A stretch of 20,801 bases of DNA from IMG/VR virus record IMGVR_UViG_3300020710_000040, positions 1 through 20,801 of that record, one strand, 5' to 3'. Both the position numbers and the translations under genes were made by a program. The DNA is from a virus. Of this stretch, positions 11,324 to 12,966 are shown one piece after another; positions within the stretch are counted from its first letter, which is position 1; the number at the start of each line of letters is the position of its first letter. Below the pieces are notes generated by a model, which did no database searches, had not been told where the DNA came from, and saw only the letters and a list, made by a program, of their open reading frames with translations.

Positions 11324-11409
11324 AAAAAAATAGGTGGGGTACTCGCTGCGTCTGGTGCATATGGCAACCACCGCAAATGAAGTGGCGCTACCAGCATCCG
11401 CTTTCCCCC
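11324..11409 (-). ncRNA. nested hairpin followed by U-tract, leader of the 51-residue gene
   Basis: Read leftward, an RNA from 11409 to 11324 can form nested stems: GGGG (11405-11409 region) with CCCC (11336-11339), GCG/CGC, CTGGT (11394-11390) with ACCAG (11356-11352), and GCCAC (11386-11382) with GTGGT (11371-11367) around a 10-nt loop. Seven U residues (11330-11324) follow after a 5-nt gap, and the ribosome site of the 51-residue gene comes next. It could be a terminator/attenuator or a structured leader. A second tRNA was considered but there is no T-arm. Confidence 0.5.
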
Positions 11410-11416
11410 GTTGAAT

Positions 11417-11565
11417 TGGTCAGGTTGTTTGGAGTCGAACCAAATAGATTTCTAACATACTTTGCTGTTTATTACGCATTCTAGAAATTGCCTTTCAAGC
11501 AAATAGCCACAGAAGAAACTTTGCACTAGATATGCAATCGTGCCACCACATCACGCTTCAACCTG
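11417..11565 (-). tRNA. tRNA-like element, 149 nt, with 76-nt variable region
   Basis: Read on the minus strand, CAGGTTG (11565-11559) pairs perfectly with CAACCTG (11427-11421), followed by A and encoded CCA. The T-arm is consensus: TTTGG, loop TTCGACT, CCAAA. A D-like arm (CGTG, 9-nt loop with GG, CACG) and an anticodon-like arm (TTGCA, loop TATCTAG, TGCAA) follow in the right order. Abnormal points are 3 nt instead of 2 before the D-stem, no U8, A instead of U33, and 76 nt between anticodon arm and T-arm. The formal anticodon would be UCU (Arg), but decoding is doubtful. That extra part contains a 7-bp ATTTCTA/TAGAAAT stem. It begins 6 nt after the gene at 11572. Confidence 0.6.
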
Positions 11566-11571
11566 TTTTAA

Positions 11572-11799
11572 TCAAAAGCTAATGTCGTCATCCTTGGGAG
11601 TGTCTTTTTCCCGTGGTTCGTTCAAGTATGCCCATCCAGACCAACCACCTTCCATCACTGGCATGTTGTCGATCTTGAGCATTTCCCCGTTTTTTGTGTC
11701 AATCACTGACCCTATTCGAGTGTATCGGTTCTTTTCTTGCCCTTGGGCATTAGTGTATTTTCCCGTAATAACGGACACTTCTTTTAGTACTTTAGCCAT
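11572..11799 (-). CDS. small recombination-operon protein with SSB-like acidic tip
   Basis: The 75-residue protein begins with a beta-rich part (VLKEVSVITGKYTNAQGQEKNRY, then IGSVIDTKNGEMLKI) and ends in a disordered charged tail whose last residues are DDDISF. That end is nearly identical to the DDDIPF tip with which single-stranded-DNA-binding proteins recruit partner enzymes. Its place right after ERF and YqaJ-type genes supports a role with single-stranded DNA. It is shorter than a canonical SSB, so I do not call it SSB. It overlaps the exonuclease gene by 8 nt. Confidence 0.7.
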   Translation of the reverse strand: MAKVLKEVSVITGKYTNAQGQEKNRYTRIGSVIDTKNGEMLKIDNMPVMEGGWSGWAYLNEPREKDTPKDDDISF

Positions 11800-12406
11800 A
11801 ACGTCTTTCGTTTAGTTTCACAATTTTTGCATCTAGTTCACTAAGGAACTCTTTTACTTCGGTCTCTAATCCTTTAATAATTGAGTCGTGGTATTCAACC
11901 CGCTTGATAAATAACTTTAACCCATCGGGCATTCTGGGGTCAAAGCTCACAAAGTCACACCACTGCCTTTGTGTGCAAGCCATTTGCCACATCATTTGCG
12001 TGATGTACTTAGCAGGCACTTTTTCAGACAGCAATGTGTCAATGTGTGTGGAGGTGTTGGGGCATTTAATCTCGATCAAACCAAATAGCCCCACTAACCC
12101 GTCAGGGGACGCGCCAGCCTCGTTAATCGTTGGGTGTACAACAAAGCCTGTTTCCTCAACCAACTCGTTCACAGCGGCCTCATAAGCTGCCCTGGCGTAT
12201 GGCTCTTGTTGCGTTCCCCATTCCATAGCGGGGCTAGAGTACCCTTCGATTGGTGCACCTGTCATGCGTTCACACACCAATTGAGCCATGTAATTTTCAC
12301 GCGATGCGCTGTAACCTGATTTTGTCTTTGCAACAATATCCGCTACGCGCGAGGCGGTCACCTTGCCACATCGGGCGGCAAACCATTCAGGCGATCTTTG
12401 CTCCAT
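11792..12406 (-). CDS. YqaJ/lambda-exonuclease-type recombination nuclease
   Basis: The start is ATG 12406, which shares a base with the ERF stop (TAATG); the frame is open further upstream but only inside ERF. The 204-residue product begins EQRSPEWFAARCGKVTASR, typical of YqaJ nucleases, and has the catalytic GASPDGLVG (metal-binding Asp) and IEIKCP (Glu-x-Lys) motifs, then QMMWQMACT, a helix with conserved Gln. In this family the enzyme degrades one strand of linear DNA and hands the other to the annealing protein encoded just before it. Together they form a Red-like recombination pair. Confidence 0.92.
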   Translation of the reverse strand: MEQRSPEWFAARCGKVTASRVADIVAKTKSGYSASRENYMAQLVCERMTGAPIEGYSSPAMEWGTQQEPYARAAYEAAVNELVEETGFVVHPTINEAGASPDGLVGLFGLIEIKCPNTSTHIDTLLSEKVPAKYITQMMWQMACTQRQWCDFVSFDPRMPDGLKLFIKRVEYHDSIIKGLETEVKEFLSELDAKIVKLNERRYG

Positions 12407-12966
12407 TACAGTTTCCCTTTCATTTTGTCTTTTGCGGCAATTACTTTCTTTTGCCAAACTGGTTCATTGTTTGCGTAACTGTAAGCCTTGACATAAGCCT
12501 TTTTTAAATCTTCTTCTGTCGTGGTAGCTTCAATTGCCGCCAGATGGTCAGCCATCACTGATTCATTAACTTCTGATTTCTTAACTTCTGTTTTGCGGCT
12601 GGCAGCGTTACCATCATCATCTTCTGGAGCAATACCGCAAGCAGCCATCAAGGAGTAACGCCGAGCATAAGTTAACGCTGACCCGTAACCCTGGGGGTCA
12701 TGCTTAACAGCGGGAACGTGGAGTTTTCCGCAAGATAAAGTCTCACCGGATTCATGAATGAACACAGTCTCTACGACTACACCAGTGTCTGATTCCGAGC
12801 ACTGCTGGACAAGAGCGATGCCGTTGTCGTTTAAACCGTTTATAACGGCTTCTACGCAAGCGGACAGGTCAGCGTATCGGCTGCGGAAATGTGGGTTTGT
12901 AGAGGTCTTTAAAGCGGGGCCAAAGGCTTTTTGAGCTTTGACCAAGGCTGTTGCAATGTTTTTCAT
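12406..12966 (-). CDS. erf: ERF-family single-strand annealing protein
   Basis: The 186-residue product has the ERF core: KAFGPALKTSTNPHFRSRYADL near the N-terminus, then VQQCSESDTGVVVETVF, and PQGYGSALTYARRYSLMAACGI (about residues 90-115) followed by APEDDDGNAA. ERF proteins form rings on single-stranded DNA and anneal complementary strands, mediating phage recombination and genome circularisation. The C-terminal third is a charged helical region. The start ATG 12966 overlaps the preceding 53-residue gene by 4 nt. Confidence 0.93.
   Translation of the reverse strand: MKNIATALVKAQKAFGPALKTSTNPHFRSRYADLSACVEAVINGLNDNGIALVQQCSESDTGVVVETVFIHESGETLSCGKLHVPAVKHDPQGYGSALTYARRYSLMAACGIAPEDDDGNAASRKTEVKKSEVNESVMADHLAAIEATTTEEDLKKAYVKAYSYANNEPVWQKKVIAAKDKMKGKL

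Follow-up and report, generated by a model that had tools for sequence, protein, structure and literature searches.

The window, i.e., the whole stretch of viral DNA analysed here (20,801 nt; IMG/VR record IMGVR_UViG_3300020710_000040, positions 1 to 20,801), contains a recombination operon on the minus strand, and a tRNA-like element is located within this operon. The features of the locus are as follows.

12406..12966, minus strand: probable ERF-type single-strand annealing protein gene; it adjoins the exonuclease gene, and exonuclease relatives have an ERF gene beside them
11792..12457, minus strand: YqaJ-type exonuclease gene of the operon, according to annotated relatives (exonuclease / YqaJ)
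11572..11799, minus strand: upstream gene of 75 aa, the stop codon of which joins the G-element directly in relatives without the tRNA-like element
11417..11565, minus strand: whole tRNA-Pro-like element, 149 nt with ACCA; it scores 164.9 bits with the family covariance model, the training sequences of which include the window sequence itself
11333..11409, minus strand: G-element, a conserved RNA-like sequence GGGGGAAAGCGGATGC...GCAGCGAGTACCCCACC located 3' of the tRNA-like element, with the same order in the contigs L105, L176, and L269

In the minus-strand reading, a tRNA cloverleaf with an arm of approximately 70 nt in its variable region extends from 11565 to 11417 (149 nt in total). This bears out the original prediction, which had described an acceptor stem, ACCA, a T-arm, a D-arm, and a third arm in tRNA order. 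The parts of the element are listed from its 5' end.

11559..11565, minus strand: P1, the acceptor-like stem, 5' strand CAGGTTG; both-side changes in six of seven pairs among eight sequences
11539..11555, minus strand: D-arm CGTG-ATGTGGTGG-CACG, with a conserved GG in the loop; the stem is invariant in all eight sequences
11521..11537, minus strand: P3, the anticodon-arm equivalent, TTGCAT-ATCTA-GTGCAA, without U33; homologous to the tRNA-Pro anticodon arm, with 2 nt more in the loop
11514..11519, minus strand: P4a, the stem of the enlarged variable arm, 5' strand GTTTCT (from covariation)
11504..11513, minus strand: internal-loop strand of the P4 arm, TCTGTGGCTA, near-invariant across the eight sequences
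11498..11503, minus strand: P4b, the inner helix, 5' strand TTTGCT (hand alignment)
11461..11466, minus strand: P4b, 3' strand AGCAAA, which holds most of the second GCAAAGT (hand alignment)
11448..11453, minus strand: P4a, 3' strand AGAAAT (from covariation)
11428..11444, minus strand: T-arm TTTGG-TTCGACT-CCAAA; 97.5% of cells paired, both-side changes in two pairs
11421..11427, minus strand: P1, 3' strand CAACCTG (covariation alignment)
11417..11420, minus strand: A73 and encoded CCA (ACCA), from the sequence and its relatives

The third ('anticodon') hairpin can be written with five pairs (TTGCA-TATCTAG-TGCAA), but a reading with six pairs and a loop of 5 nt is preferable. The window copy has A at positions 8 and 33, where tRNA has U8 and U33, so the absence of both uridines had been noted correctly. 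In the P4 arm, the near-invariant internal-loop strand TCTGTGGCT lies opposite TGTT. Two copies of GCAAAGT are present at 11524-11518 and 11465-11459, 59 nt apart, and deletion of one unit leaves 90 nt, as had been stated. The proposal that these repeats bracket a 59-nt insertion fails, since they are not conserved: the homologue in L105 reads GCAAAAC and GCAGGGT at these places. The first copy lies at the end of the third arm and the second overlaps the 3' strand of the covarying P4b. The lack of conservation of the repeats indicates that the extra ~70 nt are the P4 arm, not a random insertion.

A strict scan of the window (GTTCRANYC T-loop, 5-bp T-stem, adjoining 7-bp acceptor, and NCCA) found one site, and none was found in 300 dinucleotide shuffles. 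The check with a tRNA finder gave a divided answer: ARAGORN called tRNA-Arg(TCT) in the 90-nt form and in the form without the P4 arm, and in the full 149-nt form it found neither a tRNA nor a tmRNA. In Rfam, the full element had no match even at E ≤ 10. The single-sequence minimum free energy fold of the window copy is unremarkable in comparison with shuffles (z −0.75) and lies 6 kcal/mol below the cloverleaf-constrained fold; support for the fold therefore rests on comparison. A helix TTTCTA...TAGAAA inside the extra segment, taken at an early stage from the single sequence, was dropped, as the covarying helix is another one.

Seven further distinct sequences were identified in unrelated freshwater phages of IMG/VR, which makes eight with the window. 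The element is absent from 80 contigs with a related exonuclease. A search with the G-element pattern revealed a 149-nt homologue just before the G-element in L105 and L176, and further sequence patterns added L269, L319, L320, L346, L347, L348/L355, and L349; the last pattern, applied across all viral contigs, gave no new family members. BLASTN comparison of the full element with phages and plasmids returned chance fragments only, and an exact 21-mer from the T-arm and acceptor was not found in viral contigs. A looser D-loop/T-loop pattern detected mostly chance pairs around ordinary tRNAs and three true members, and none of the 24 matches of a stricter pattern in a scan of genome contigs belonged to the family. 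The family model returned nothing at E ≤ 1e-10 over 401 + 369 bacterial genomes, an empty answer that, having no positive control, shows nothing. The family is absent from Rfam 15, and a literature search found no description of it; it is a previously undescribed family of phage structured RNAs. As for the 3' end, ACCA is present in the window, L105, L176, and L269, and GCCA in L355. In L319, L320, L346, L347, and L349, AAAA or ACAA stands instead of CCA and the acceptor extends into a longer stem, so that not all members can be processed to a free tRNA end.

The covariation alignment comprised the eight distinct sequences with the variable tip of P4 taken out. Among 28 pairs in five helices, 96.9% of cells are paired and 10 pairs show both-side changes; all the sequences come from metagenomic contigs of about five lineages, and the tested structure was derived from the same sequences. 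None of the five covariation measures was reached by any of 500 shuffles (0/500). Related sequences can beat shuffles without any structure, which is guarded against by a slid-partner control, where only 31–43% were paired. The invariant helices (D-stem and most of P3) contribute no covariation evidence. In P1, the first pair (C1-G72) is constant and the other six vary on both sides; P4a covaries as TTTCT:AGAAA, CTTCT:AGAAG, and CCTCT:AGAGG, and P4b, in the hand alignment, as TTTGCT:AGCAAA, CTTGCT:AGCAGG, ATTGCT:AGCAGT, and CTTGG:CCAAG. RNAalifold, with the alignment as sole input, recovered the acceptor, D, third, P4, and T arms, and the single-sequence minimum-energy fold of L355 is the family fold. 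Comparison of the window with L105 gives 19 differences, of which 12 are in helices and affect eight pairs, every one still paired; the suggestion of a decayed tRNA does not stand up to this result. The pairing of the acceptor and T-stem, on the conservation of which in relatives the original prediction had staked itself, is kept by compensatory changes. Covariation across the eight sequences points to a maintained RNA structure, neither decay nor chance, and to judge from these alignments the element is almost certainly a real conserved RNA.

The surroundings of the element differ between lineages, which marks it as a module. In L003, L005, L031, and L001, the G-element stands directly after the stop codon of the gene, and the site occupied in the window is empty; L003, L005, and L031 read TTTTGATTAACCGGGG or TTTTGATTAACGGGG, and the window reads TTTTGATTAAAA-[element]-ATTCAACGGGGG. 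The complete genome of a podovirus from Manatee Spring (MW202484.1) provides a second empty site: it has the large RNA of L349 without the tRNA-like domain. These two empty sites indicate that the element is an optional module. In L105, it is located in a non-coding array of ~1 kb between two genes, and in L355 in a tRNA array, where it ends in GCCA ~5 nt before tRNA-Gly. In L320, its position is upstream of a gene with 62.5% identity to the major capsid protein of the Methylophilales phage MEP301. By capsid protein, this isolate is the closest to the L320 phage; it has no more than a short gap at the corresponding place and gave no match to the family model. In L347, a 20-bp stem carries the element, and terminator-like sequences flank the non-coding region around it.

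The G-element span also reads GGGGGAAAGCGGATGC...GCAGCGAGTACCCC (11409-11333), which is conserved among the exonuclease relatives. Its pattern occurs in at least 120 viral contigs in IMG/VR, e.g., L001, L005, and L082-L201, as an intergenic sequence of ~70–80 nt, GGGGGAAAGCGGATGC-(variable hairpin)-GCAGCGAGTACCCCACC, which mostly lies downstream of a stop codon and ahead of the following gene. The GAA/AGUA sides are similar to a loop E motif, and no match to the G-element was found in Rfam. Past the tRNA-Gly on the minus strand of L348/L355, there is a tRNA-like sequence with an anticodon arm of Arg-TCT type and no visible D-arm; in this region ARAGORN finds tRNA-Gly only.

In L319, L320, and L346, the element is located inside the same kind of RNA region of ~530–560 nt. 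A near-consensus promoter (TTGACA, then TATACT) precedes the large RNA in L319 and L346, and a 751-nt stretch over this region of L319 folds far better than shuffles (z −4.85). The places of this large RNA are given below.

L319 430-1000, L320 1553-2090, L346 3725-4260, L435 4504-4880, and L349 (minus strand): large structured phage RNA, 365–557 nt

Its outer stem covaries (e.g., TGACAC/GTGTCA, TAGGAA/TTCCTA, and TAACGGT/ACCGTTA), the tRNA-Pro-like domain is optional within it, and in MW202484.1 the region is annotated as the hypothetical protein UOF77725.1. The non-coding array that holds the element in L105 and L176 also contains the Betaproteobacteria-1 RNA of Rfam (101 bits; L105 1481-1598, minus strand; L176 600-717, plus strand), reportedly described in a 2017 survey. 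The L105 array (2275-1276, minus strand) has further structured-looking modules, e.g., GGTTAGCGCC...AACACTGCTTTATG, shared with L014 and partly with L096 and L106. In addition, tRNA-Leu-like phage genes of L247 and L302 have in the anticodon loop an apparent structured insert of ~50 nt between TCAGA and TCTGA, and the two inserts look related.

The ancestry of the family was assessed with host-group tRNAs. The family covariance model was run over 200 genomes of Burkholderiales, the order holding the Comamonadaceae MAG G011, and at E ≤ 1e-6 it found six places only, all of them ordinary tRNA-Pro genes. Applied to the tRNAs of two genomes, the model gave 37.8, 35.3, and 30.2 bits for Pro-GGG, Pro-UGG, and Pro-CGG, respectively, and 23.8 bits for the next tRNA. 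In global alignments of the core without P4 with 65 host-group tRNAs, Pro-GGG was first for the window, L105, L319, and L347, with a lead of 5 to 13 points; L355 was ambiguous, Ser-CGA being slightly above Pro-GGG over the whole core. The third arm corresponds to the anticodon arm of tRNA-Pro (host sequence CTTGCATGGGGTGCAAG), its loop being extended by 2 nt, and UUGG is kept in the anticodon-equivalent loop of six of the eight aligned sequences, those of the window and L355 being the exceptions. The likeness to bacterial tRNA-Pro(GGG) comprises C1-G72, A73, the T-arm, the GG of the D-arm, and the anticodon arm TTGCA...TGCAA, whereas the ~70-nt P4 arm, the loop longer by 2 nt and without U33, and the absence of CCA in some members distinguish the element from it. 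The element is similar, not identical, to the sampled tRNA-Pro genes, and the sampled genomes may not include the true host of the phage. Judged by these comparisons, the family very likely has its origin in a host tRNA-Pro, with GGG as the nearest isoacceptor.

With elongator tRNAs, the element shares a cloverleaf with a 7-bp acceptor, D, anticodon, and T arms and, in the window, the 3' ACCA; it does not share the 7-nt anticodon loop with U33, the length of ~73–95 nt, or detection by tRNA finders. Decoding is not expected, since U33 is gone and the loop is 2 nt longer than that of tRNA-Pro, and there are good grounds to regard the RNA as non-decoding. Class II tRNAs (Leu, Ser, Tyr, and bacterial Sec) also have five arms, one of them a stem in the variable region, set 1–3 nt after the third arm and 3 nt before the T-stem, but P4 is several times longer, contains a conserved internal loop, and is attached to a core like that of class I tRNA-Pro. 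The tRNA-like domain of tmRNA likewise has a tRNA acceptor and T-arm on a longer RNA; the element, by contrast, keeps the D-arm and third arm, and its 3-70 pair is G-C, not the alanine G3-U70. No conserved tag reading frame was seen, and neither ARAGORN nor Rfam gave a tmRNA match; a tmRNA, the marks of which are a tag frame, pseudoknots, and G3-U70, was rejected. A group I intron or other known insert in the anticodon arm was also rejected, as Rfam gave no match at E ≤ 10. GOLLD and ROOL are large structured phage RNAs that occur near tRNAs or carry them; the resemblance is in kind only, and Rfam matches to them were absent from the window, L319, L347, and L105. Betaproteobacteria-1 (RF02932), a neighbour of the element in the array of L105 and L176, is a different RNA and has no match in the window.

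Among the options offered by the original prediction, a tRNA mimic agrees best with these results; the tRNA-Pro core, the third hairpin of 6 bp with a 5-nt loop, and the nature of the element as an optional module beside or inside other structured RNAs had been missed. The strongest rival, and the most interesting reading, is a putative decoy: by imitating tRNA-Pro, the RNA would engage a host enzyme, be it ProRS, a modification enzyme, or a defence toxin that cuts tRNAs, and so protect the phage or slow the host, while its broken anticodon loop and P4 arm would bar it from translation. The tRNA-Pro descent, a C1-G72 pair that never varies while the other six acceptor pairs do, A73 in most members, and a Pro-like UUGG in six of eight loops, albeit without U33, are consistent with it, as are the copy of one phage (L355) in a real tRNA array and the presence or absence of the element between close relatives, as for anti-defence cargo. 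The copies of the window and L355 have, however, lost the anticodon triplet, a free CCA end is missing from five members, and we regard a decoy as rather unlikely. The window copy, placed exactly between a stop codon and the next operon element, might act as processing punctuation in the way that organellar tRNAs do between mRNAs; here, the tRNA fold would allow cleavage of the operon transcript by RNase P and 3'-end enzymes, so that the recombination genes are parted from what lies downstream, namely the RNA element and a MazG-type gene. The ACCA end kept in the window and L105 and the position of the L355 copy between other tRNAs agree with this. Such a role, on the other hand, needs neither the conserved 70-nt P4 arm nor its internal loop, close relatives manage without the element, copies embedded in longer stems have no free end, and punctuation is on the whole unlikely.

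A functional tRNA from which an insert is spliced or removed to give the 90-nt form, or a phage tRNA in decay, is already largely refuted and very improbable: ARAGORN does accept the 90-nt and P4-less forms as tRNA-Arg(TCT), but the repeats at its borders lack conservation, the segment itself is the P4 arm, which is conserved and covaries, U33 is absent, the loop sequence varies between lineages, all eight changed pairs between the window and L105 are retained, and neither a group I intron nor any other Rfam match was found. Phages often integrate at tRNA genes, and the T-arm and acceptor of L105 resemble those of the host tRNA-Pro, which would suit a DNA-level role as a site for attachment or recombination that stems from a host tRNA-Pro gene. 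DNA identity, however, would not call for the compensatory changes that keep the structure along the entire element, no 3' identity segment was seen, and the same family occurs at unrelated genome positions; with the whole fold conserved rather than a 3' segment, the recombination site considered originally is hardly credible.

The best explanation, which we consider probable, is an undescribed phage RNA domain derived from tRNA-Pro, with a P4 arm of ~70 nt, matured or protected by host enzymes and not used for decoding; it probably imitates a tRNA rather than works as one. The element would be transcribed within a phage transcript and fold into the tRNA elbow (D-loop/T-loop). Host tRNA-maturation enzymes could recognise this elbow, with RNase P acting at the 5' end and 3' trimming to CCA in the CCA-ended forms. 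The outcome may be a stable RNA, released or protected, that displays the P4 arm and its conserved internal loop to a partner, and the anticodon arm, remodelled by the absence of U33, the longer loop, and, in the window copy, the loss of the Pro anticodon, would not decode. Since several members have no CCA end, it can be argued that what all members require is the arm and elbow rather than charging.

With regard to function, two inferences stand foremost, namely processing and stability of the tRNA type, and a decoy role. A handle for the maturation or stability of P4 or of the neighbouring RNA is tentatively put forward as the main role. More speculatively, a mobile, non-decoding tRNA-Pro body with a protein- or RNA-binding variable arm might be used by unrelated phages, alone or in an RNA of ~500 nt, to act on the host tRNA machinery, e.g., as a decoy for ProRS or tRNA-cutting defences. 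The existence of empty and filled sites makes the function open to a direct deletion test, given a cultured carrier phage. As tRNA finders reject sequences of this sort, many non-decoding phage RNAs of tRNA origin may have gone unnoticed. The element, if confirmed, would show how a tRNA gene can become an RNA domain for regulation or defence, and it would provide a concrete probe of phage manipulation of host tRNA metabolism.
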